A stretch of 64,000 bases of DNA from an uncultured Mycobacteriaceae bacterium. GTDB taxonomy: Bacteria; Actinomycetota; Actinomycetes; Mycobacteriales; Mycobacteriaceae. The DNA is taken from NCBI GenBank assembly GCA_902826815.1, contig CADEGF010000035.1, positions 1-64,000 of the forward strand, given 5' to 3'. The position numbers were made by a program, and so were the translations under genes. Of this stretch, positions 51,954-64,000 are shown piece by piece (position 1 is the stretch's first letter; every line of letters begins with the position of its first letter). The notes beneath the pieces are model-generated. The model made no database searches. It had not been told where the DNA came from and saw only the letters and a program-made list of their open reading frames with translations.

Positions 51954-52382
51954 CTAGACCTTCGCCGACAGCTTGACGTCGATGTTGCCGCGGGTGGCCT
52001 TGGAGTACGGGCAGACCTGGTGCGCCTTCTCCATCAGCTCCTCGGCCGCGCTCTGCTCGAAGCCGGGCAGATAGCCGATCAGGTGCGCGTTGATGCCGAA
52101 GCCGCCCGCCGGGTCCTTGCCGAAGCCGATCTGGGCGGTGATGCCTGCGGCGTCGTCGACGTCGATCTTCTCGTTGCGGGCGACCAGGCGCAGCGCGCCG
52201 AGGAAACATGCGGCGTAGCCCGCCGAGAACAGCTGCTCGGGGTTGGTGCCCTCGCCGTTGCCGCCCATCTCCTTCGGGTGGCGGGTGTCCAGGTCGATCC
52301 GGCCGTCCGACGACTTCACGTGGCCTTCGCGGCCGCCCCCGGTGGCGGTTGACTCTTCTGTGAAAACGACTTCGATACTCAT
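51954..52382 (-). CDS. Organic hydroperoxide resistance protein, Ohr/OsmC family
   Basis: 142 aa from ATG 52382 (in-frame ATG 52394 adds four residues). Peroxidatic Cys59 (GYAACFLGAL) and resolving Cys124 (QVCPYSKATRG) are both present, as are the surrounding Ohr-type residues. Reduces organic hydroperoxides using lipoylated partners. 59 nt after the FAD enzyme, same strand; the next gene (51306-51947) starts 6 nt on. Confidence 0.93.
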   Translation of the reverse strand: MSIEVVFTEESTATGGGREGHVKSSDGRIDLDTRHPKEMGGNGEGTNPEQLFSAGYAACFLGALRLVARNEKIDVDDAAGITAQIGFGKDPAGGFGINAHLIGYLPGFEQSAAEELMEKAHQVCPYSKATRGNIDVKLSAKV

Positions 52383-52441: not shown

Positions 52442-54043
52442 TCAGCGCCGCCGTCGACGCTTCGCGTCGCGAAGCACCTCTCTGGCGGCGTTGCGACCGT
52501 TCGCCCCGGTGACACCCCCACCAGGATGGGTGCCCGCGCCGCAGAGGTAGAGCCCGGGCACCGGGGTCCGGTACTTCGCCCAGCCGCGCACCGGACGCAT
52601 GAACAGCAGTTGGTCGGGGGACATATCGCCGTGCAGTGCGTGCCCGCCGGTCAAACCCATCACCCGCTCCATGTCCAGCGGGCTCAGCACCTGGCGATGC
52701 TCGATCAGCCCGCTCAGGCCGGGAAAGTAGTTTTCGAGTTGGGCGATGACCTCGTCGGCGCGGGTGTCCTTGATGTCGTCCCAGTTCTCGTCGCGAAGGT
52801 GGAAGGGCTGCGAGTTCACGTCGATCGTGGCGATGTGCTTGCCCTCGGGCGCGAGCGAGGGGTCGTGCACAGTCGGAAAGACGATCTCGACGTGTGAGTC
52901 CCGCACCGCCAGGCCGTACTGTGCCTGCGCCTGATGCAGATCCATCTCGGCGATGAACGGATTCACCTCCATGATGCCCCGATGATAAGGCTGCACTCCG
53001 TCGCGAGGATGTCCTGTGACATAAGGCAATTCGGTCAACGCCAGATTGATCTTTATGCTGGTGCCCATGCAGCGGTAGCTCTCCACCTGACGCACGAAAT
53101 CGTCGGGCAGATCGCCGCGGTCGCACAGCGTCAGGAAGGTGTGCTTGGGGTCGGCGTTGGACAGCACCCGGGTGGCGGTGATCTCCTCACCTGAGACCAA
53201 CCTCACCCCGGTAGCCTGCCCTCCGCTCGTCACGATGCCTTCGACAGATGCATCGCAACGGATTTCAGCACCGGCTTCCCGCGCCGCGTGCGCCATCGTC
53301 TCGGTCAGCACGCCCATCCCGCCGCGCACGAAACCCCACTGGCGCACCCCGCCGTCGGTCTCCTCGCTCGCGTGGTCGTGCAGCAATACGAACGCCGTAC
53401 CAGGAGTGGACGGCCCCGCCACGCTGTCGTTGATCGCGTGCCAGCCGAGTGCCGCCTTCACGTGTTGGCTGTCGAAGTGCTCGGCCAGTATTCCGTGCGC
53501 GCTGGTGGTGAACAACCGGGCCAGCTGATCCAGATGCTTGCGGGCGCGCAAACCCACCCCGCCCAGCTTCGCCAGCCCGCGCAGATCGTCGAGGCTCTTC
53601 ACCCGCGGGTCGGGGGCGGTCCAGTCGAAGATCGGCAGCACCTGCTGGACCATGTCGCTGAGGTCCTCTTCGAACTTCGGCAGGGCGCGCGCGTCGTGCT
53701 CCGAGAAATACTTCGTCGCCGCCACGTTCTCGGCCATGTCGTCGCCCAGGTAGTAGCTCGCGCCGTCGGCGTACAGGTTCAGCGTCGGACCCGCCGGGTC
53801 GACGTAGATTCCGCGCCGCTCCAGTTGCATGTCCTGCCAGATCGCCTCGCGCAACATCGACAACACGTATGCGCCGGTCGACGCCCGGTAGCCGGGAGCG
53901 AATTCCTCGGTATTGCAGGCCCCGCCGACGAACGGACGACGCTCCAGGATCAGTGTCTTCAGCCCGGCCCTGGCAAGGTAGAAGCCTGCGACCAGACCGT
54001 TGTGCCCACCACCGACGATCACCGCGTCGTAGTGCGTGCTCAT
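52442..54043 (-). CDS. FAD-dependent phytoene desaturase/PYROXD2-like oxidoreductase
   Basis: 533 aa. N-terminal dinucleotide-binding motif [21 protein letters not shown]-terminal [20 protein letters not shown] of the CrtI/PYROXD2 group. Member of the family that oxidises C-C or C-N bonds without a dedicated carotenoid context. Last gene of the six-gene operon; ATG 54043 overlaps the dehydratase stop. Substrate inferred only as an intermediate of the operon pathway. Confidence 0.87.
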
Positions 54044-55695
54044 CGCGGCATCACGGCGCCCTCGCAGGCCGGCGCCACATTCTGTGCGTAGAAGGCCAAG
54101 TATCCCGATTTCACGTTGGGCTCGCGGCGCACCCAGGCGGCCTTGCGGGCGGCCAGCACGTCGTCGGGCACGGCCAGGTCGAGCCTGCGGTTGTCCAGGT
54201 CGATCAGAATCCGGTCGCCGTCCTCGACCAACCCGATCGGCCCGCCGTCGGCAGCCTCGGGCCCGACGTAGCCGATCGCCGGGCCGTGCGTCGCCCCGGA
54301 GAATCTGCCGTCGGTGATCAGCGTGACGCTTTCGGAAAGTCCCATCCCGACGACCGCCGACGTCGCGCCGAGCATCTCGCGCATACCAGGCCCGCCCCTT
54401 GGCCCCTCGTTGCGGATGATGATGGCCGTGCCGGGTGTCACCTCGCCGCCGAGGATCCCTTCGATCGCGGACTCCTCGTCCTCGAACACCTTGGCCGTGC
54501 CGTCGAATTTCCACATCGACGGGGCGACGCCTGACGCCTTCACCACCGCACCGTCCGGAGCCAGGCTGCCACGCAGGATGAAGATCGCGCCTTCTTGGGC
54601 GATCGGATTGTCGCGGGACGCCAACAGTTCCGGGTTGAGATTCTCAGCGGCAGAGGCAATCTCGCCAGTGGTCTGACCCGAAACGGTGATCGTCGACTTG
54701 TGGATGAGGTCACCGAGCTCACTCAGCACCGCCGGAACACCTCCTGCCGCATGCAGTTCGGTCACGCCCCACGGACCCGACGGAGCGAGCTTGGCCAGCG
54801 TCGGTGTCTGCCTGCCGACGCGGTCGATCGTGTCGTAGTCCAACTCGATGCCCGCCTCCTTGGCCATCGCGATGAAGTGCAGCACCAGGTTCGTCGATCC
54901 GGACACCGCCAGTGAGACGCGCAATGCATTCTCGAACGCCTCGGTGGTCAGGATGTCACGCGGGCGAACGTTCTCCCGGAACAATTCGACGATCCGCATA
55001 CCGGTGTACTTCGCGGCCCGAATCTGGTTGTTGCAACCGGCGGGCATGGTGCCTGTGTGCGGCAGAGACATCCCGAGCGCCTCGCAGTAGATGCCCGCGG
55101 TGTTGCCGGACGTCAGGGTGTCACCGGCCCCTGGCCCTGGGAACAGTTCGTCCTCCCAGTGCTTGAGGGTGGCCTCGTCGACCTCACCTCGCACCACCCC
55201 TCCGACGCCGTCGTAGACGGTCTCGAGGAACAGCTTCTTGCCGCGGTACACGCCGTAAGGCGTTGGGCCTGCATACAACAGCATCGACGGCAGGTTGAGC
55301 CGGGCAGCCGCCATCACCATGCCCGGCGTCGGCTTGTCCCCGCCGGTCAGCAGCACCAGTGCGTCTATCCCGTGGCCCTCGGCCATCAACTCGACCGAGT
55401 CGGCAACCACGTCGCGGCTCGGTAGCACGTAGCGCATGCTGCGTGCGGCGAAGGCCTCGCTGTCGGTGACGTGAAACGTGTTGAACTCGATCGGCGTCCC
55501 GCCCGCCATCCGCACCCCCGACTTGACGGCGTCGACGAGCGTGCGCAGGTGTGCGTTCTCCGGGGAGAAGTCCTGATAGGTGTTGGCGATCATGATGAGC
55601 GGCTGACTGAGTTCCTCGTCGGTGAAGCCTGCGCCCTTTATCCACGCCCGCTGCAGCGAGCGGTCGGTACCCACGAACTGGTCTCTACTGCGCAT
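54040..55695 (-). CDS. IlvD/Edd-family dehydratase lacking the iron-sulfur cysteines
   Basis: 551 aa, alignable over its length with dihydroxy-acid/aldonate dehydratases. The three cluster cysteines are replaced: Glu46 where PCN is expected (SPENAH), Gly119 where CDK is expected (GGDK), and Gly191 in GPGAG instead of GxGxC. The carbamylated Lys position is kept (Lys121) and so is the C-terminal TDGRFSG. The enzyme thus cannot bind a canonical [2Fe-2S]/[4Fe-4S] cluster. It may use another metal or do other chemistry. Start overlaps the lyase gene by 11 nt. Confidence 0.88.
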
Positions 55696-57937
55696 GTGTC
55701 CTCACTTGTTCTCGTAAAGGTGTTGTTTCCAAGGCATTTTCGATGGATTCGAGCACCACCGATGCCACCCGCTCGGCCTGCTCGGCCGTGATCACCAGCG
55801 GTGGCCGGATCTTCAGCACATTTCTCCGACGGCCAGTCGCACCGATCAGTACGCCGTGACGACGCGCGACGTCGAGCACACCGGCGGCCAATGCACCATC
55901 TCCGCTCAGCTCAACGCCGATCAACAATCCGCGCCCGCGAACGTCGTGCACTGCGGGGTGTCCGGCCGCCGACAGTCGCGATCGCAGCAGGGCTCCCATT
56001 TCGTCCGCGTGCTCGATGAGACGCTCGTCGACGATGACGTCGAGGACCGTCGATGCGGCCGCGGCCGCTACCGGTCCGCCCGCATAGGTGCTGAAGAATT
56101 CGCTCTGGGCGGCAAGCGATTCCACGTCGGCGCTTCGCGCGATTACCGCTGCCACGGGGTGGCCGTTACCCATCGGCTTACCCAGCGTGACGAGATCCGG
56201 ATCGAGCCCGGCGCCCACGAACGACCACAGATGGTCACCCGCGCGACCGAACCCGGCCTGGACTTCGTCGGCCACCACCAGCGCACCGGCTCGTCGGGCT
56301 GTGCCGGTCAGCGCTGCGTGATAGCCATTGCCGGGCACCAGGATTCCATCGCTGGTGTAGGTGGGATCGACAAACACCGCGGCGGGCTCGTGGCCACGTT
56401 CGGTGAGTTCCGCGACGGCACCTTCCAGATCCGCGCCGACCTCGAACGTTGCGACATGATCGGGTGCCCACCCGCCGCGCCACTGCTCGGGGGACAGGGC
56501 CGTCGTCGCCGTCGTGACGCCGTGGTAGGCGAAATCGGAGACCACCGCACCGGTGTGGCGGGTGACGGCGGTCGCTATCCGCCACGCCAGGTCGGTGGCC
56601 TCGCTGCCGGAGTTGAGGAACAGCACCGTGTCCAGTCCTAAATCAGCGGGCATGCTCGCGACCAGGCGTTCGGCCAACTCGATCGCGCGCGGGTGCAGAT
56701 AGCGCAGGTTGGTACTCAGCAGGCGGACTTGGTCGGCGATCGCCGTCGCCACCCGAGGGTGTGCGTGCCCGACCACCGGCACATTGTTGTAGGCGTCGAG
56801 GTAGCTCCGCCCGTCGGCGTCGAAAAGCCTTGCGCCACTTCCGCGGACCGGTGCCAGTGGTTCGCGGTAGGTCAGGGGCGCCAACGCGGTGCCGAATACC
56901 GCGTCGCGGCGGGCGCGTAGGTCCGTAGGACGGGGGCGGGGATCCCCGAGTTCGCCTAACAGGTTCCACGCGCCTGCGTCCCAGCTGGACAGGTAGTCGG
57001 CGATGTCGGGTCGCTCGGCGCGGCGCGCCGCCGACAGGCTCAGCGTTATCGCGTTGCGCAGCTTGAGCGTGTCGACCAGCACTTGACGTTCGACGGGTTC
57101 CAACGGGCAGACGGCTGTGTAGCCGTCGAGGAACAGCCCGATGGTCGACTGCAGGTCGCGACCGGTCCGGGTGGACGCCACCGACGACAGCGCCGCAGCC
57201 ACATCCCACACCAGCGCCGTGTGGGTGAGGTCGCCGAAATCGATGATGCCGCACACGTGGTCGTCGTCGTCGAGTAGCAGGTTGTCCAGCGTCAGGTCGG
57301 AGTGCACCGGCTGCGCGCGCAGCCCCGACCACATCGGCGCCACAACAGCCTCGAAGCGGTCGAATGCGGCGAGCACCATGGCGCGCCCGTCCGGGTCGCT
57401 GATGGCGTCGGCCAGCGGGCGCACGTCGTGGCGGGACTCGGCGTGCCACGGCAGCCTGCGCGCGGCGGCGGGGTGGAAGAAGCCGCGCAACGCGAGCCCG
57501 AGCCGCGCCGAAACGGCACCGAATTCTTTGACCGCAGACGGCCTCAGCGTTGCGCCAACCTTCGATGCTCCCCCCGGCAGCTGCCGATACAACCGCACCA
57601 ACCGCGATGTCTGTCCCGACGGTGCGGGAGCGACTCCGTGTAGTTCACCGGTGACCGCGCGCAGCGGCACGGCTATCGGAAGGCCGGGATCCACCTGATG
57701 CGCCCACACCGCGGCGCGCCCTTCGAGGTCCACATCGTCGACGGGCGTTGCGGGGTGGGAGATCTTGACGACCCGGCCGTCGCCGCGCCCGTGGAGCAAC
57801 GCGGTCTGGTCACGTTCGCTGTCGAAATGTGCGGACACGGCGCCGTCGAATCCGAACAGCTCGGCGACGACGGCCGCGATGGCGTCATCATCGAATGCGT
57901 CGGCGGATTCGGCAAGCAGATCGGCCAGGCGGCTCAT
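55685..57937 (-). CDS. Fused APH-like kinase and class III PLP phospholyase
   Basis: 750 aa in two domains. Residues 1 to about 330 form a choline/hydroxylysine-kinase (APH) fold with [11 protein letters not shown] (His212, Asp214, Asn219) and IIDFGD (Asp233). Residues about 340-750 form a class III aminotransferase with Asp557 (VVADEVQ) and Lys587 (TLGKPMGNG). [14 protein letters not shown] and STNLRYLH match the ethanolamine-phosphate/phosphohydroxylysine phospholyases (AGXT2L group) rather than transaminases. Family knowledge predicts ATP-phosphorylation of a hydroxy-amine, then release of Pi and NH3 giving an aldehyde. ATG 57937 overlaps the permease stop. Confidence 0.85.
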
Positions 57938-58782
57938 GCGGTTTCCATCCGGTTGAGCCGAGCGAAGCGGTACGCCAAAAGCGCGAAGATCCCGGACAGT
58001 CCGAGCATGACGAGGTTCATCGCCGAGCCGGTACCCCAGTCACCCTCCTCCAGGATCACATCGCGGATGCGCTGGCCGAGCATGTACGACGACGGCCCAC
58101 CGACGATGTCGGCGGCGACGAAGTCGGCGTACATCGGGATGTAGACCAGGATCGCGGCCACGAAGATACCGGGCGCTGCCAGCGGCACCAGGATTCGCCT
58201 GAACTGTTGAAACCAGTTGGCGCCCAGGTCAGTTGCCGCTTCCAGCGTCACCGGGTCGATCGCCTTCATCGCCGCGTAGATCGGGATCGTGGTGTAGGTG
58301 ATGTAGGACGTGACGAGGCCGATCACCACCGCAAACGGACTGTAGAGCAACCAGTCGACAGGAGGCCCCGGCAGTATCCAGTTGATCAGCCCGTTGCGGC
58401 CGAGGATGACCTGCCAGGCGTAGACCCGCACAACGGGCGCCAGTTCGTCGGCGACAACAAGTGCGAGCAGCAGGAACAGTTCGCGCCGCCCCGCCTTGAA
58501 CACCATGTAGTAGGCCAGCGGGAGCGCGATCGCGAGCATGAGCGCCATCGCGATCGTGACGATGACGAACGTCGTCAGCGCGATCTTGAGGTTCAGATGA
58601 TCGGTGAGCGCATCCCCGTAGTGCTTCAGGGAAAAGCCGCTGGCCGTCCTCGGCGGGAACTTCAGCACACTCATCTGGATCAGCACCGCGAACGGCACCA
58701 CGAAAAACAGCAGAAGAGCTGTGGTTGGCGCCGCCAAAACCGCCAGTGCACCGCGTGTTCCGGTCTCCGATCGCAGCCTCAC
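57934..58782 (-). CDS. ABC transporter permease (PotB-like)
   Basis: 282 aa from GTG 58782, six transmembrane segments. EAA loop EAATDLGANWFQQFRRILVPLAAPG contacts the ATPase. Spermidine/putrescine-type importer family. Overlaps both neighbours by 4 nt. Confidence 0.92.
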   Translation of the reverse strand: MRLRSETGTRGALAVLAAPTTALLLFFVVPFAVLIQMSVLKFPPRTASGFSLKHYGDALTDHLNLKIALTTFVIVTIAMALMLAIALPLAYYMVFKAGRRELFLLLALVVADELAPVVRVYAWQVILGRNGLINWILPGPPVDWLLYSPFAVVIGLVTSYITYTTIPIYAAMKAIDPVTLEAATDLGANWFQQFRRILVPLAAPGIFVAAILVYIPMYADFVAADIVGGPSSYMLGQRIRDVILEEGDWGTGSAMNLVMLGLSGIFALLAYRFARLNRMETA

Positions 58783-59606
58783 GCTGCCGCCCCCACGTGC
58801 GTGCCGCCGGTGATCATGGCGGTGGCGGCTTCATTGCTCGTCCTGCGCTTGATGAGTTTCAGGCAGCCCCAGATCAGCAATAGCTGCGCTGCCGAGATCA
58901 GCGCGGAGACGGCGTTGACGACGGCGGTGTGGTCGGGATCGCGAACCGATGAGTAGACCCAGACCGGAAAGGTCTGCTGGAATCCGATGGTGAATGCGCT
59001 TATCTCGTAGTTGTTGAACGACCAGGTGAACGCGAAGATGCCCGCGGCGGCAAGAGCCGGCGCCACGTGGGGGAACACGATGTAGCGCAGCACCTGGAAG
59101 CGATTGCAGCCCAAGTCGATCGCGGCTTCCTCCTGGCTGCGCTCGAACCGGAATAGCTGGGCGCCGACGATCGCGGTGACCAGAGGAAAGGTGCACACCA
59201 CCTGTGTCGCGATCACTGTGGTCAAGCCCAGCGTGATATCGGCCTTCGCGTAGGCCATCAACGCGGCAATTCCTATCACCAGCCACGGGAGGATGAGCGG
59301 CGCGGCCACCAGTCCCGCCACTGCTCCCCTGCCTCTGAAACGGAAGCGGGTCAGTCCGAACGCCGCCAGCGTGCCGAGCACAAGGCAGACCGGCGCGACG
59401 ATGACGGCGACGATGGTCGAGTTCAGCAGTGCGCTCTGCAGCGACGGGTCGCGCAGGGCGGCGCGGTACCAGCGCAGCGTCAACCCCTCGAACGGCAGAG
59501 CCAGGACGCTGGAGTCGTTGAACGAGAAGAGCACCAGGATCAGCAGCGGCCCGAAGAGGACAGCGCCGACGACGATCAGGAAGGTGCGCCAGAGGGATGC
59601 GCTCAC
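58779..59606 (-). CDS. ABC transporter permease (PotC-like)
   Basis: 275 aa from GTG 59606, six transmembrane segments. EAA loop EEAAIDLGCNRFQVLRYIVFPHVAPA. Partner of the PotB-like subunit. 19 nt after the binding-protein gene. Confidence 0.92.
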   Translation of the reverse strand: MSASLWRTFLIVVGAVLFGPLLILVLFSFNDSSVLALPFEGLTLRWYRAALRDPSLQSALLNSTIVAVIVAPVCLVLGTLAAFGLTRFRFRGRGAVAGLVAAPLILPWLVIGIAALMAYAKADITLGLTTVIATQVVCTFPLVTAIVGAQLFRFERSQEEAAIDLGCNRFQVLRYIVFPHVAPALAAAGIFAFTWSFNNYEISAFTIGFQQTFPVWVYSSVRDPDHTAVVNAVSALISAAQLLLIWGCLKLIKRRTSNEAATAMITGGTHVGAAA

Positions 59607-59625
59607 CGGCGGGGTGCGCGACTAC

Positions 59626-60738
59626 TCACGACGCCTTGACCTCGGCCCACGCCTTCACCCAAGCGGCGCGGTCCTTGGGCGGGGCCGCCGGAATCGCATT
59701 GTCGAGATCGAAGAGCGTGTCCAGCGCGGCGTCCTTGCGAACCTCCGGGGTGACCGCGTCGATGATTCCCTCGTTGGACGTCATGTAGTTCCAGTTGGTC
59801 GCCTCGTAAACCTGCGCGGGCAGGCTGGTGTACCAGTTCAGCAGCGCGTAGGCGGCATCCACGTTCTCGTCGGCGATGTGGGGGCTGATGCCGTAGCCGC
59901 ACGTCCACAGCATCTGACCTTCCTTGGCGACGGCGAACTTCACATTGAGCCCGTCGGCCTGCAGGTCCTTCACGATGTTGGTGTAGCTGCTGGCGATATC
60001 GATCTCACCCGACTTGAACTGGGCCACGAGCTCGCCCTGGTCCTCCCAAAGGGTGCGGAACTGGCCGCGGTTGTCGGACAGGAACTTCTTGACGCTCTCG
60101 AGCTGCGCGGCATCGATGTTCAGCGGATCGGTGATGCCGGTGGCCAGCGCGCCGATGTCGATCGCGGTGACCGCGTTGTCCTGCAGCGACGCCCGGCCCT
60201 TGTACTGCGGGTCGAACAGATCCGTCCAGGACGCAGGCGGGGTGGTGATCTTGTCGGCGTTGTACATCAGTCCCGCGGTGCCCGCGTCGACCGGGACCAC
60301 GTAGAACTCGCCGTCGACGGTGACGCCCGGCATCTCCTTCATCGCAGGCCAGATCTTGTCCCAGTTCTCCAGGCGGGAGGTGTCCAGCGGTGCGTATACG
60401 CCCTTCTCGACGGCCTCCTGCGATGCTTCGTCGACGCAGGTGTTGATGACGTCGGCCTTGAATCCGGCCTGGACCTTCGCGATGGCTTCTTCGTTGCTGC
60501 CGAACGAGGCGGTCTCCAGCTTGACGTTCGGATACTTCTCGTAGAACGACTTCATGTAGTCGGCGTCGTAGCCGTCCTCGTAGGAGTACAGCCGGATGGT
60601 GCCGGTGATCGAGGCAGGGTCACTCGGGTTCGTCTGGCCTGCGCCTGCGGCCTGCGAGTCGCCGCCGCCGCAACCGGCGAGCAGCACTGCGAGCACGGAT
60701 GCACAGGTGCAGGCCAGCTTCTTCTGGGTGCTTGTCAC
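59626..60738 (-). CDS. ABC transporter substrate-binding lipoprotein (PotD-like)
   Basis: 370 aa from GTG 60738 with GAGGAGTGACGC upstream. Lipobox LLAGC (Cys about 23), then a bilobal binding protein of the polyamine/spermidine class (SYEDGYDADYMKSFYEKYPNVKLE, WEDQGELVAQFKSGEIDIASSYT). The class binds small cationic amines or amino acids. First gene of the operon; no ATPase gene is found nearby. Confidence 0.9.
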   Translation of the reverse strand: MTSTQKKLACTCASVLAVLLAGCGGGDSQAAGAGQTNPSDPASITGTIRLYSYEDGYDADYMKSFYEKYPNVKLETASFGSNEEAIAKVQAGFKADVINTCVDEASQEAVEKGVYAPLDTSRLENWDKIWPAMKEMPGVTVDGEFYVVPVDAGTAGLMYNADKITTPPASWTDLFDPQYKGRASLQDNAVTAIDIGALATGITDPLNIDAAQLESVKKFLSDNRGQFRTLWEDQGELVAQFKSGEIDIASSYTNIVKDLQADGLNVKFAVAKEGQMLWTCGYGISPHIADENVDAAYALLNWYTSLPAQVYEATNWNYMTSNEGIIDAVTPEVRKDAALDTLFDLDNAIPAAPPKDRAAWVKAWAEVKAS

Positions 60739-60776
60739 GCGTCACTCCTCGGATCGGGGCCCCCGCTCTGGGCAGA

Positions 60777-60805
60777 ACGCTATTTCGCAGACCACAGATT
60801 GTCAA
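60777..60805 (-). promoter_or_regulatory. Operon promoter
   Basis: TTGACA (60800-60805, minus strand) and TAGCGT (60777-60782) separated by 17 nt, upstream of the binding-protein gene. Its -35 box lies inside the operator-like TTGTCAACA. Confidence 0.65.
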
Positions 60806-60809
60806 CAGT
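60798..60809. promoter_or_regulatory. Candidate GntR operator at the importer promoter
   Basis: ATTGTCAACAGT; its core TTGTCAACA is identical with the palindrome at 61571-61588 next to gntR. It covers the -35 box. Confidence 0.6.
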
Positions 60810-60858
60810 TTACCGTCGGCCTGAAACGGCCGCCTACCAGCGGCTGTTCAGTTCCGGA

Positions 60859-61536
60859 TCAGTCGGTCTCGTTCAGCAGCTCAACCAACTTGTCGCCGGC
60901 CTCGAGGGAATGCTCCCTGGTCAGCCTGGCCGCCAGTTCCTCGTCGCCGGATTCGATGGCGTCCACGATGGGCTCGTGCTGGCACACGACCTCATCCAGG
61001 GACGGCATGATCTTCTCGTCGAGACGAAGCAGGCCGCGGATGGTCGGGACGTAACGCAGGAAGACCTCGTGCACGCGCGAATTCCCCGACGCCGCGCACA
61101 GGCCGTCGTGAAACGCCAGGTCTGCCCGTGCCACTGCGCTCGCGTCGCCGGTGGCGGCCGCCTCGCTGATCCCGGCCACCAGAGTCCGAAGCCTGGCAAC
61201 CGCGGCCGGATCCTGTGCGCGGCATACCAGGCGCGCGGCGAGTTCCTCGACCGATGCGCGCAGCGCGTAGATGTCGCTCACGTCCTTTGCCGTCAGGCTC
61301 ACCACGAACGTGCCGCGCCGCGGCTCCTCGGCGAGCAGCCCCTCGGCCCGCAGAATCTTGAACGCCTCACGGACCGGCCCGCGGCTGACATTCAGTTGTT
61401 CGGCGATATGCGCCTCTTTGAGGTGCTCGCCCTGGCGGAAGCCACCGAGGACGATTTGTTCGCGAATCCGGTCCGCGGCGTCCTCGGTGAGCGACCGAGG
61501 CACGTCGATGGGCCGTAACGTGACAGGATCGGTCAT
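60859..61536 (-). CDS. GntR/FCD-family repressor
   Basis: 225 aa. N-terminal winged HTH with HIAEQLNVSRGPVREAFKILRAEGL and C-terminal FCD domain keeping the metal/ligand residues (ADLAFHDGLCAAS...HEPIVDAIESGD). The gene is divergent from the enolase-superfamily gene. The ATG follows TAGTCT (61543-61548, minus strand) by 6 nt, so it may be leaderless. Ligand is probably a metabolite of the operon substrate. Confidence 0.9.
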   Translation of the reverse strand: MTDPVTLRPIDVPRSLTEDAADRIREQIVLGGFRQGEHLKEAHIAEQLNVSRGPVREAFKILRAEGLLAEEPRRGTFVVSLTAKDVSDIYALRASVEELAARLVCRAQDPAAVARLRTLVAGISEAAATGDASAVARADLAFHDGLCAASGNSRVHEVFLRYVPTIRGLLRLDEKIMPSLDEVVCQHEPIVDAIESGDEELAARLTREHSLEAGDKLVELLNETD

Positions 61537-61559
61537 TTTGGCAGACTACCAACTGGATT

Positions 61560-61569
61560 GTGTCGACAC
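61560..61569. promoter_or_regulatory. Palindrome GTGTCGACAC between gntR and the enolase-superfamily gene
   Basis: Perfect 10-bp palindrome in the 65-nt divergent intergenic region, next to the main GntR operator. May be a second binding site. Confidence 0.35.
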
Positions 61570-61570
61570 G

Positions 61571-61588
61571 CATTTTGTCAACAAAATG
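61571..61588. promoter_or_regulatory. Candidate GntR operator at the gntR/enolase divergent promoter
   Basis: CATTTTGTCAACAAAATG, 8-bp arms with a 2-nt centre mismatch. Abuts the -10 box of the enolase-superfamily gene. Confidence 0.7.
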
Positions 61589-61594
61589 TAATGT
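61589..61594 (+). promoter_or_regulatory. Candidate -10 box of the enolase-superfamily gene
   Basis: TAATGT followed by 7 nt and the GTG start, implying a leaderless mRNA. Confidence 0.5.
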
Positions 61595-61601
61595 ACCGAA
61601 C

Positions 61602-62726
61602 GTGACGAAGATTGCGCGACTCGAAGCATGGGCACTGGGACCCGACGTCGAACGGTTCCGATACACGTCGTTCTCCGATGAGGTGTTCACCACGACGACG
61701 CTGGTGCGCATCACCGACGCCGACGGTACGACGGGAATCGGGGCCTATGACTCCGACACATTCGGCATGTGGGACCGCGGTCCGATCGAGACGCTGCGCC
61801 CACTGCTGCCGCGACTTCTTGGCATGGACGCCGACGACCGGGACGCCGTCTACGCACTGGTATCGGAGGACAACACGTCTGCCTTCCCGCCTGCGGTGCG
61901 CTCGACGATAGATACTGCGTTGTGGGACTTGGCATCCCGACGAAGTGACAAGCCATTGCGGGAGATGCTGGCTGGCGGGGTGACTCCAACGTCACTGCCG
62001 GGGTACGCCTCGGTCCCACTGCTGGACGATGAGGACGCCTATCGCAACGCGTTGACCAGCTTCGTCGAATCCGGTTACCGCGCAGTCAAACTGCACGCGT
62101 GGGGAATCCCCGAACGCGATGCGGCGCTGCTGGGCACCCTGCGCCGGGCATTTCCCGATCTGGTCCTGATGTTCGACGCAGAGGGACGCTATGACCTCGA
62201 TGGTGCGCGGACGGTGGCAGCCGCGTGCGACTCCGTCGACGCACGCTGGTTCGAGGCGCCGTTGCCCGACTTCGACCTGCAGGGCTACTTGGCGTTGCGC
62301 GATGAATTCGGCTCCCTGCCAATACTTCCCGCAGGCGATGCGATCTGGCAGCCCGATCTGCTTGCCAATGTGCTGCGACTGGGGCCGTTCAGCGCGGTGC
62401 GGTTCGACGTCTCGTTCGTCGGTGGCCCGACCCCGGCGGTCCGGATGATCCGCGCCGCCGAGGAGGCGGGCCTCGATGTCGAGCTGATCAGCTACGGCCA
62501 TACCGTCATTCAAGCCGCGGATCTACAGGTCGCGCTCGCGTTCGGCAGGACGTCGTATTTCGAGCAGGCGGTCCCGGTCGAACCGTTCGAGCATGGCGTC
62601 ACCGACGTGTTGCGCACCGGCTCCGACGGACTGGTCCATGCGCCGGACAACCCGGGGCTGGGGATCGGGCTTGACGAAGCCGTCGTCGACGCGATCGCGT
62701 TCGAGCGGTTCGTCGTCGGCTGCTGA
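61602..62726 (+). CDS. Enolase-superfamily (mandelate racemase/muconate lactonizing-like) enzyme
   Basis: 374 aa from GTG 61602. Lys in VKLHAWG, metal ligands in LMFDAEG (Asp), WFEAPL (Glu) and LPAGDAIW (Asp), and His general base in ISYGHTV fit the MR-type group. N-terminal capping domain about 1-125. Likely a sugar-acid dehydratase or racemase. Divergent from gntR and probably co-regulated with the importer operon. Specific substrate unknown. Confidence 0.85.
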   Translation: MTKIARLEAWALGPDVERFRYTSFSDEVFTTTTLVRITDADGTTGIGAYDSDTFGMWDRGPIETLRPLLPRLLGMDADDRDAVYALVSEDNTSAFPPAVRSTIDTALWDLASRRSDKPLREMLAGGVTPTSLPGYASVPLLDDEDAYRNALTSFVESGYRAVKLHAWGIPERDAALLGTLRRAFPDLVLMFDAEGRYDLDGARTVAAACDSVDARWFEAPLPDFDLQGYLALRDEFGSLPILPAGDAIWQPDLLANVLRLGPFSAVRFDVSFVGGPTPAVRMIRAAEEAGLDVELISYGHTVIQAADLQVALAFGRTSYFEQAVPVEPFEHGVTDVLRTGSDGLVHAPDNPGLGIGLDEAVVDAIAFERFVVGC

Positions 62727-62755: not shown

Positions 62756-62774
62756 ACAAGCGGCATCCGCTTGT
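62756..62774. promoter_or_regulatory. Perfect inverted repeat, probable antitoxin operator
   Basis: ACAAGCGG (62756-62763) and CCGCTTGT (62767-62774) around CAT. Lies immediately before the -10 box of the xre gene. Confidence 0.7.
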
Positions 62775-62775
62775 A

Positions 62776-62781
62776 TAGAAT
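62776..62781 (+). promoter_or_regulatory. Candidate -10 box of xre-abiEii
   Basis: TAGAAT followed by 7 nt and ATG 62789, suggesting a leaderless mRNA. Confidence 0.5.
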
Positions 62782-62788
62782 GAGAAAC

Positions 62789-63265
62789 ATGCCTGCTACA
62801 TCGCCGCCCATCGTGCACGCCGCGGCGGCCGATCTCGGGGTCCTTGGCGCCGCAATCAGAGCTCGGCGCGCAGAACTCGGCCTCAGCATGGTCGCCACTG
62901 CCGGAGCTGCCGGGATCTCCCGAGTCACGCTGCACCGAATCGAGCGGGGAGTGCCAGCGGTCACCATGGGGGCATACATGAACGCCGCCGCCGCATTAGG
63001 TCTGAGAATCACCGCCTGCAGTCCAACCAGTCACGCCGCCAGCACGAGTAGCGCATACGCCGCGGCTGTCCGCGTTCGTGACTATCCGCAGCTGCGTCAA
63101 CTCGCTTGGAACCTCAGCGAGGAAACCACTCTCACCGAGGAGGAAGCGCTTCACCTGTACGAGCGCAACTGGCGCCACGTCGACCAGTCCACAATCACCG
63201 AAAGCGAGCGGGACTTCATCCAGCACCTCGCCGACACGTGGAGCGGCGGGAGGCTTCTTGTTTAA
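62789..63265 (+). CDS. XRE-family HTH protein, probable antitoxin
   Basis: 158 aa from ATG 62789. N-terminal XRE helix-turn-helix (LGAAIRARRAELGLSM...AGISRVTLHRIERGVPAVTMGAYMNAAAALG, in parts), then a helical C-terminus. AbiEii toxins normally pair with an AbiEi winged helix; this XRE partner is a recurrent alternative. Its TAA overlaps the toxin start region. Probably autoregulates via the repeat at 62756. Confidence 0.82.
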   Translation: MPATSPPIVHAAAADLGVLGAAIRARRAELGLSMVATAGAAGISRVTLHRIERGVPAVTMGAYMNAAAALGLRITACSPTSHAASTSSAYAAAVRVRDYPQLRQLAWNLSEETTLTEEEALHLYERNWRHVDQSTITESERDFIQHLADTWSGGRLLV

Positions 63266-63950
63266 CCGGCCACGCCACCGCCTCGTCGCGGCCATCCTTG
63301 ACTCGCTCGACGCGGGCGTCCTGGTGGCGCATCGGTGCTACTTCGGTGGAGGAACCGCGATCGTGCTGCGGCGCAACGAGTACCGTGAATCCCTCGACGT
63401 CGATTTCCTGGTGTCCGACATCGACGGCTACCGCGGTCTACGTGAGCTCGTCACCGACAGTGGCGGCATCAACGCACTTGCCCGACGCCCCCTGCACCCG
63501 CTGCGCGAGGTACGTGCCGACCAGTACGGGCTGCGCACCCTCATCGACGTCGAGGGCAGCCCAGTCAAGCTCGAAATCATCCACGAAGGACGTATCGTGC
63601 TCGACGCACCATCCGCTGACGACCACGTGTGCGGTGTCTGGACACTGAGCACCCTCGATATGGCTGCCAGCAAGCTGCTTGCCAACGCTGACCGCTGGGC
63701 CGACCCCGGCGTGTTCCATCGCGACCTGATCGACCTGGCCATGCTCGAACCCTCACCCGAGATCCTGCGTGCCGCGATCGGCAAAGCGTCGCGCGCCTAT
63801 GGAGACAGCATCGAGCACTGCCTCGACGCCGCGATCGACCTTCTCGGCGACAAACCCGAACGACTCGACCAGTCCATTGCCGCCCTACGGATCGATACCC
63901 CGAAAGACATTCTGTGGCAGAAGATTCAGCATCTCCGCCCGCCTCCTTGA
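63258..63950 (+). CDS. AbiEii/AbiGii-family nucleotidyltransferase, probable toxin
   Basis: 230 aa from TTG 63258 with GGGAGG 4 nt upstream. GG-[T/A]-motif FGGGTAIVLRRNEYRESLDVDFLV, the metal-binding DxD of the DNA polymerase beta-like fold. Family members phosphorylate or nucleotidylate tRNA 3' ends or GTP-bind; target unknown here. Overlaps the xre end by 8 nt. The 63951-64000 tail has no gene. Confidence 0.82.
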   Translation: MFNRPRHRLVAAILDSLDAGVLVAHRCYFGGGTAIVLRRNEYRESLDVDFLVSDIDGYRGLRELVTDSGGINALARRPLHPLREVRADQYGLRTLIDVEGSPVKLEIIHEGRIVLDAPSADDHVCGVWTLSTLDMAASKLLANADRWADPGVFHRDLIDLAMLEPSPEILRAAIGKASRAYGDSIEHCLDAAIDLLGDKPERLDQSIAALRIDTPKDILWQKIQHLRPPP

Positions 63951-64000
63951 CGACCAGGTGGCCCTCAGCTGCTTCTTGACAGCGCGACGGCGGCAATCGC

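Follow-up and report, generated by a model that had tools for sequence, protein, structure and literature searches.

Oxygen sensitivity in the IlvD/Edd family of dehydratases is caused by the iron-sulfur (Fe-S) cluster of these enzymes. PMC9632902 describes IlvD/Edd enzymes as "all containing iron-sulfur-clusters," and PMC5770437 reports that two of the three cysteines, not all three, are fully conserved in the family and proposes different cluster types, not cluster loss, for some members. Among open-licence papers, no title or abstract was found on a cluster-less IlvD or on the gene set described here. We analyzed a 64,000-nt stretch (the window; bases 1 to 64000 of contig CADEGF010000035.1 [C35; 74,699 bp]) from the 6.87-Mb genome of an uncultured Mycobacteriaceae bacterium, in which an IlvD/Edd homolog without the three Fe-S ligand cysteines (IlvD*) lies within a GntR-linked operon for import and catabolism.

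Several described systems resemble parts of this locus. IlvD* shares its fold family, length, Mg-site Asp/Glu/Lys, and catalytic Ser with the IlvD/Edd dehydratases (i.e., dihydroxy-acid dehydratase [DHAD], L-arabinonate dehydratase, and D-xylonate dehydratase; 6ovt, 6nte, and 5j84), but its [2Fe-2S] cysteines are replaced, and T196S, A197G, Y429N, and H476Y are fixed in ten close members. Ethanolamine-phosphate and 5-phosphohydroxylysine phospholyases (ETNPPL, 6tor; phospholyase 5g4i) share with the locus their lyase signatures and the pairing with an APH-type (hydroxylysine-kinase-like) kinase, whereas here the two are fused in one chain, the operon partners are others, and the kinase has been lost in one genome (G132). 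As in PotABCD/YdcS-type importers, there are a binding protein, two permeases, and a PotA-type ATPase; here, however, the ATPase lies in an adjoining module, there are two binding proteins, and Cys replaces Asp in the first of them (SBP1). We tentatively read the locus, with somewhat less than even confidence, as one half of a GntR-controlled two-operon system that would import and degrade a small hydroxylated primary amine or amino acid, with an IlvD* that works without a cluster. The gene families, the paired modules in four genomes, the common operator core, and the loss of cysteines in IlvD* can all be read directly from the sequences. For work on bacterial amino-alcohol catabolism, the gene set offers a defined system that can be deleted in order to assign a pathway. 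Its features in the window are as follows (profile matches or other evidence in parentheses).

52442..54043, minus strand: FAD-dependent oxidoreductase, CrtI/CrtO/amine-oxidase-like superfamily, 533 aa (PF01593, 3e-20)
54040..55695, minus strand: IlvD*, IlvD/Edd homolog lacking the three Fe-S ligand cysteines, 551 aa (PF00920, 4.5e-101; PF24877, 2.4e-69)
55560-55558, 55341-55339, and 55125-55123, minus strand: codons of the replaced IlvD* ligands, Glu46, Gly119, and Gly191, respectively (alignment with 6nte, 6ovt, 9ix7, and 5ym0)
55685..57937, minus strand: kinase-lyase fusion, APH-type small-molecule kinase (about 1-330) and class-III aminotransferase-fold lyase (about 335-750) (PF01636, PF00202)
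57934..58782, minus strand: ABC permease, PotB-like (PF00528; NF007044, 1.2e-35, under the cutoff of that profile)
58779..59606, minus strand: ABC permease, PotC-like (PF00528; NF007047, 7.6e-42, under the cutoff of that profile)
59626..60738, minus strand: SBP1, PotD/YdcS-like solute-binding protein with a lipoprotein-like N terminus by eye (PF13416, 1.6e-29; relatives 4gl0/4eqb)
60796..60811, no strand: putative operator upstream of SBP1, AGATTGTCAACAGTTT (exact core at 60799-60807)
60859..61536, minus strand: GntR/FCD transcriptional regulator, upstream of the operon and co-directional (PF00392, PF07729)
61572..61587, no strand: putative operator in the gap between gntR and the enolase-superfamily gene, ATTTTGT-CA-ACAAAAT, with 7-bp palindrome arms (exact core at 61575-61583)
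61602..62726, plus strand: enolase-superfamily (MR_MLE) protein, divergent from gntR (PF13378, 2.6e-36; best solved relative, 4jhm)
63965..64000, minus strand: last bases of the Kbl/BioF-like gene that ends module A (remainder of module A to about 72556 on C35)

All eight genes named in an earlier, sequence-only reading of this stretch were recovered as open reading frames (ORFs) of the families it gave, on the basis of the ORF list and profile matches. On the minus strand, the operon runs from SBP1 through the two permeases, the kinase-lyase fusion, and IlvD* to the FAD oxidoreductase. That reading called it a six-gene overlapping operon, which is accurate for four junctions (overlaps of 4, 4, 11, and 4 nt) but not for SBP1 and the first permease, which are separated by 19 nt. 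Its description of gntR as divergent had to be corrected, as gntR lies 120 nt upstream on the operon strand; the enolase-superfamily gene is the only one from which it diverges. Inspection of the sequence by eye favored GTG 61602 over 61560 as the start of the enolase-superfamily gene, whose closest solved structure, 4jhm, bears no specific function name. The FAD oxidoreductase matched NF045689 (2.5e-73) with 247.5 bits against a cutoff of 1000. No ATPase gene was present inside the six-gene operon, and a scan for promoters and terminators returned signals no commoner than chance.

We refer to the gene set of the window as module B and to a neighboring second gene set as module A. Both were compared across four loci, namely, the window, two loci from named Mycolicibacterium (L004 and L005), and one from a genome of the same genus as the window (L010, i.e., G132). 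The genes for GntR, SBP1, the kinase-lyase fusion, IlvD*, and the FAD oxidoreductase were grouped in all four. The proposal of a conserved GntR-linked set for import and catabolism was therefore borne out, and the neighborhood comparison by which it could have failed (i.e., genes that do not co-occur) went in its favor. The enolase-superfamily gene occurred in three of the four loci; neither L010 nor its adjacent 15 kb gave a match. Permeases of the module B type were present in two loci: in L004, SBP1 and the kinase-lyase gene had no permease between them, and L010 had a pair of the module A type. The window, L004, and L005 agreed in gene order; in L010, the order was gntR copy 2, kinase-lyase, IlvD*, FAD, cupin, two permeases, gntR copy 1, and SBP1. 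A EutQ-type cupin gene followed the FAD gene in L005 and L010 and had a homolog near IlvD* in Rhodococcus, and it was absent from the window and L004 when searched for there. Identities between the window and the other three loci were 86 to 91% for the FAD oxidoreductase, 75 to 84% for GntR, and 69 to 82% for SBP1.

Module A adjoined module B in all four loci, so the set seen by the sequence-only reading was not the complete unit that it was taken for; the second conserved operon lay beyond its view. In the window genome, module A starts at the right edge of the window and lies mostly past its end, behind a pair of HTH-type and AbiEii-type genes, and in L005 the ORFs of the two modules are only about 20 bp apart. 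Module A encodes an alkaline phosphatase (the first gene in 4/4 loci), a PotA ATPase, a CpsB/CapC-type protein (not found in L010), a second binding protein (SBP2), two permeases, a class-III aminotransferase-fold protein, and a Kbl/BioF-like acyltransferase. L010 has a single permease pair, situated in its module B stretch. The ATPase of the window genome (ABC_tran plus TOBE_2; about C35:70087-71250) is 78% identical to the PotA-like ATPase of G132, which passes TIGR01187 potA. Module A thereby supplies the ATPase missing from the module B operon, and the importer is complete. Nearest to the Kbl-like protein was 2-amino-3-ketobutyrate CoA ligase (1fc4), and nearest to the aminotransferase-fold protein were alanine/serine racemase and gamma-aminobutyric acid (GABA) transaminases. 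As a separate observation, the HTH-type gene and the AbiEii-type nucleotidyltransferase gene that follows it (62771-63950), between the enolase-superfamily gene and module A, are possibly a type IV toxin-antitoxin pair; the other cluster stretches gave no match to the HTH gene.

Alignment with solved dehydratases placed Glu46, Gly119, and Gly191 of IlvD* at the positions of the [2Fe-2S] cysteines; none of the three cluster cysteines was present, and both domains of the ILVD_EDD fold (PF00920 and PF24877) were recognized. We compiled a motif table of 11 cysteine-poor rows and 22 other family rows, leaving out L007 (Streptomyces) and the partial L027, which also have Glu, Gly, and Gly in a separate alignment. 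Among the 11 IlvD* rows, position 1 was Glu and position 2 was Gly in all, and position 3 was Gly in seven and Cys in four (the alphaproteobacterial-type L008, L009, L026, and G815). In the 22 other rows, Cys occupied positions 2 and 3 throughout (22/22 each) and position 1 in 19, the remaining three having Gly (Subdoligranulum, Monoglobus, and Paenibacillus). The Mg ligands, the carbamylatable Lys, and the catalytic Ser (D78, D120, K121, E430, and S466) were kept in 11/11 IlvD* rows. Identity between IlvD* and the 22 cysteine-bearing rows was 33 to 45%, and in a tree of all 33 rows, the 11 formed one side of a branch with support of 100/99, with some long branches flagged, including that of a 48% identical Streptomyces iranensis member. 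This second cysteine-less homolog (L062:9211-10869) overlaps a downstream FCD-type GntR gene.

Nineteen alignment columns, one of them a C-terminal gap column, were fixed in the ten close members and differed from the canonical state, defined as that common to at least 85% of 14 close canonical proteins. Those near motifs were G119, S196, G197, N429, and Y476. Positions 46 and 191 fail this filter, as canonical proteins vary at the first ligand and IlvD* members vary at the third.

We then estimated selection as dN/dS (NG86) between the window and the other three loci, with dS values of 0.57 to 1.11 that were partly saturated. The ratios were 0.07 to 0.10 for IlvD*, 0.08 to 0.13 for the FAD oxidoreductase, 0.11 to 0.13 for the enolase-superfamily protein (two loci), 0.16 to 0.21 for the lyase domain, 0.17 to 0.27 for SBP1, and 0.21, 0.29, and 0.58 for the kinase domain; against Streptomyces, IlvD* gave 0.16. 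Of the five genes measured, IlvD* and the FAD oxidoreductase were thus under the tightest constraint, followed closely by the enolase-superfamily gene, and IlvD* is under strong purifying selection.

Since the three cluster cysteines are lost, iron-sulfur dehydration by IlvD* cannot be assumed, and the dehydration step of the sequence-only reading does not hold as it was written. We offer, as a possibility open to considerable doubt, that IlvD* founds an IlvD/Edd clade without an Fe-S cluster, which would turn over hydroxy acids with Mg2+ alone, use Glu46 as a Bronsted acid replacing the iron Lewis acid, tolerate oxygen, and have been recruited to amine catabolism. The cluster is the weak point of this enzyme class, and such a clade would represent a natural form that tolerates oxygen. 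Whether the fold can do chemistry with no metal other than Mg2+ is directly tested by a conserved clade that lacks the ligands, a question relevant to enzyme evolution and to the biotechnological use of oxygen-stable dehydratases.

It is unlikely, in our judgment, that IlvD* instead still holds an Fe-S or other iron center with another set of ligands and acts as an ordinary dihydroxy-acid or sugar-acid dehydratase. Its profile scores fall just under the dehydratase cutoffs (NF002068, 643.1 of 644 bits; TIGR00110, 611.1 of 618.15 bits), and the four alphaproteobacterial members retain the third-position Cys, both of which would suit such an enzyme; however, two ligands are replaced in 11/11 rows and all three in 7/11. 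Nor is Cys204, near the third ligand position, conserved: only the window, L003, and L004 have Cys there, and the remaining eight IlvD*-type rows show Thr, Val, or Ala. We also considered whether IlvD* replaces the normal IlvD of the host and rejected this, as the canonical ilvD most likely falls in an assembly gap. No other IlvD/Edd gene was found in the assembly of the window genome, and the sequence just past the canonical ilvD in M. vanbaalenii BC8_1 starts at base 1 of contig C113.

IlvD* served as the probe for distribution searches. Among named contigs, the nearest relatives of the window's set were from Mycolicibacterium, which suggests that the window also comes from a Mycolicibacterium, and 6 of 35 pattern matches were confirmed as IlvD* loci (two each from Mycolicibacterium, Streptomyces, and alphaproteobacterial metagenome-assembled genomes [MAGs]). 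The genome scans scored only three to nine candidates per genome, so that their counts are lower bounds: at least 2 of 148 genomes of the genus and at least 2 of 394 of the class (E <= 1e-150), and at least 2 of 397 of the order (E <= 1e-145), were matched, the same two each time (the window's own genome and G132). At E <= 1e-145, matches were also obtained in at least 2 of 337 genomes of the class of the alphaproteobacterial MAG G526 (one being the center genome) and in at least 1 of 200 of the family of Streptomyces iranensis (the center genome itself). Among 59 plasmid records with a match, there were three close relatives, from Rhodococcus JS3073 (81% identity), Ensifer adhaerens (66%), and Arthrobacter (79% over the first 377 residues). 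The Arthrobacter plasmid homolog (L027:10001-11284) matches only these first 377 of the 551 residues. Rare and scattered occurrence of this kind suggests horizontal spread of IlvD*.

Of 13 loci examined, 11 had a GntR gene homologous to that of the window (FCD-type) adjacent to IlvD* or in its vicinity; L008 was without one, and L061 has a GntR-aminotransferase (MocR-like) gene instead. Other neighbors varied. IlvD* was accompanied by an MFS transporter and an amidase nearby in Streptomyces iranensis; by hydantoinase A and B genes, a TIM-barrel protein, and a TRAP transporter in a Rhodobacteraceae MAG; by ABC transporter genes with an SsuA-like binding protein, a D-2-hydroxyacid dehydrogenase, an amidase, and amidohydrolases in the alphaproteobacterial MAG; by an amino-acid permease, a DAO-type FAD enzyme, an aldehyde dehydrogenase, a cupin, and an HAD hydrolase in Rhodococcus; and by an HAD hydrolase, an ornithine-cyclodeaminase family protein, and transporters (by eye) in Ensifer. 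Given these varied settings, IlvD* is a portable part of several catabolic sets rather than bound to one pathway.

Regarding the kinase-lyase fusion, the nearest solved structures of the lyase domain were phospholyase 5g4i (1.9e-81) and ethanolamine-phosphate phospho-lyase 6tor (2.3e-71), followed by 7nn1 (1.4e-51), which agrees with the phospholyase label first proposed for this domain. It carries the pyridoxal phosphate (PLP) lysine K587 and phospholyase signatures, including TLGKPMGNG. The motifs YNNV, GH.HP, GKPMG, and (N/D)VLKIRPPL are common to this domain and to separate or fused kinase-lyase pairs of Sinorhizobium, Variovorax, and Natribaculum, and the signatures differ from those of the module A aminotransferase-fold protein. 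PRK06148/06149 proteins carry an intervening peptidase domain; the window fusion shows the profile match and the two domains, without that peptidase domain. The class-III aminotransferase-fold lyase described in PMC8154272 shares the fold and a lyase role, and NF049939 matches the lyase domain, but at 160 bits, far under the cutoff of 525. In the class, 6 of 394 genomes had kinase-lyase fusions (the window's, G132, G300, G391, G392, and G205). Those in L017, L018, L019, and L020 (the fourth other fusion locus, a 4.4-kb contig) yielded no substrate clue; the only other module A or B match in L017, L018, and L019 was generic ABC-ATPase similarity (31 to 33%) in L017 and L019.

Kinase catalytic motifs were intact in the window, L004, and L005. 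The natural loss of these motifs in the G132 fusion (L010:10255-11253) leaves the reading frame open and the lyase domain conserved (75% identical), and APH is no longer detected by Pfam. G132 may receive a prephosphorylated substrate, may use another kinase, or may have a lyase that does not need phosphorylation.

The operator core TTGTCAACA occurred exactly twice in the window, against 0.14 expected, and none of 100 shuffles reached two. With one mismatch allowed, TTGTCAACAR was unexceptional (5 seen against 2.54 expected; 13 of 100 shuffles reached 5). Sites in the four genomes gave a consensus palindrome close to AGATTGT-YR-ACAATCT. Exact cores numbered two each in the window, L004, and L005 and three in L010 (nine in the cluster stretches), one of the L010 sites preceding a PHP-domain gene. 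The site upstream of SBP1 was at the same place in L004 and L005 and had one mismatch in L010. Rhodococcus L025 had one exact core, between gntR and IlvD*, and no exact core was found in L006, L008, L009, L026, L017, L018, or L019.

In the two-operon system that we favor, the exported alkaline phosphatase may hydrolyze a phosphate ester to release the amine, and the two binding proteins would use the PotB/PotC-type permeases with the module A ATPase. The kinase domain would phosphorylate a hydroxyl adjacent to the amine, after which the class-III lyase domain would eliminate phosphate and ammonia to give an aldehyde; the phospholyase step is likely, and the kinase step would be usual but dispensable. 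IlvD* would act on the hydroxy-acid product without Fe-S, with Mg2+ and carbamyl-lysine binding the substrate and Ser466 taking the alpha proton. Glu46 could be the general acid in the place of iron (dehydration), or IlvD* may only epimerize. The FAD and enolase-superfamily enzymes would carry out downstream oxidation, dehydration, or racemization, and an inducer would release GntR. Of the specific substrates considered (ethanolamine, 1-amino-2-propanol, hydroxylysine, threonine-derived aminoacetone, and a polyamine), none fits all genes.

Several results weigh against this reading. In G132, the HxD...N and DFG-like motifs of the kinase are lost, part of the domain is deleted, and identity is down to 45%, which speaks against phosphorylation as the fixed step that had been proposed. 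No aldehyde dehydrogenase, which a phospholyase product would need, was found in the window or the other cluster stretches with one Rhodococcus L025 query, which a divergent one could escape. Genome-wide, TTGTYRACAR had 63 matches against 38 for the reversed control (both strands, palindromes counted twice); a specific regulon defined by the core was rejected, as the core occurs at many other genome sites. By its genomic settings, IlvD* is not tied to a phospholyase. Finally, SBP1 reads LWTCG where 4gl0/4eqb read LWFDN, with Cys in place of Asp and no acidic residue at that position. An Asp at this place contacts the polyamine in PotD, and the SBP1 ligand is therefore probably not a standard polyamine.

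A narrower explanation is the use of ethanolamine/phosphoethanolamine (or 1-amino-2-propanol), in which the phosphatase frees the amino alcohol for the importer, the kinase-phospholyase gives acetaldehyde or propionaldehyde, and the remaining enzymes belong to other branches. The alkaline phosphatase at the head of module A in 4/4 loci and the proximity of the lyase domain to phosphoethanolamine-type lyases speak for it. We nevertheless consider it improbable: the IlvD*, FAD, Kbl-like, and second aminotransferase-fold genes, which co-travel in 4/4 loci, are left unexplained, no aldehyde dehydrogenase was found with the single query used, and the most constrained genes are IlvD* and FAD, not the kinase, which is lost in G132.

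The PotABCD-type transporter genes and the degenerate kinase of G132 would also fit ordinary catabolism of a non-hydroxylated amine or polyamine, with the aminotransferase-fold domain as a transaminase and the kinase in another role or none. This is rather improbable, as the lyase signatures follow phospholyases, unlike those of the module A aminotransferase-fold protein, several other genomes also have the kinase and lyase fused or side by side, and the binding-protein site is without the Asp. That IlvD* is a remnant devoid of catalysis or has a non-enzymatic role is very improbable, as, despite the loss of the family-defining cluster ligands, its Mg ligands, carbamylatable Lys, and catalytic Ser are kept in 11/11 rows, its dN/dS is low in three loci and against Streptomyces, and it occurs in both actinobacteria and alphaproteobacteria with an FCD-type gntR nearby in 11/13 loci.

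Nine places among the genome-wide core matches were inspected. At C6:133944-139684, three matches lie within 6 kb, near a GntR paralog (38% identical) and a class-III aminotransferase-fold gene, and this is perhaps a sister regulon. Immediately downstream of the FAD gene and on the same strand, an OsmC-family gene (51954-52382) was unmatched in the other cluster stretches and is probably outside the set. A 741-aa plus-strand ORF (59293-61518) antisense to SBP1 and gntR resembles a shadow ORF of GC-rich DNA.

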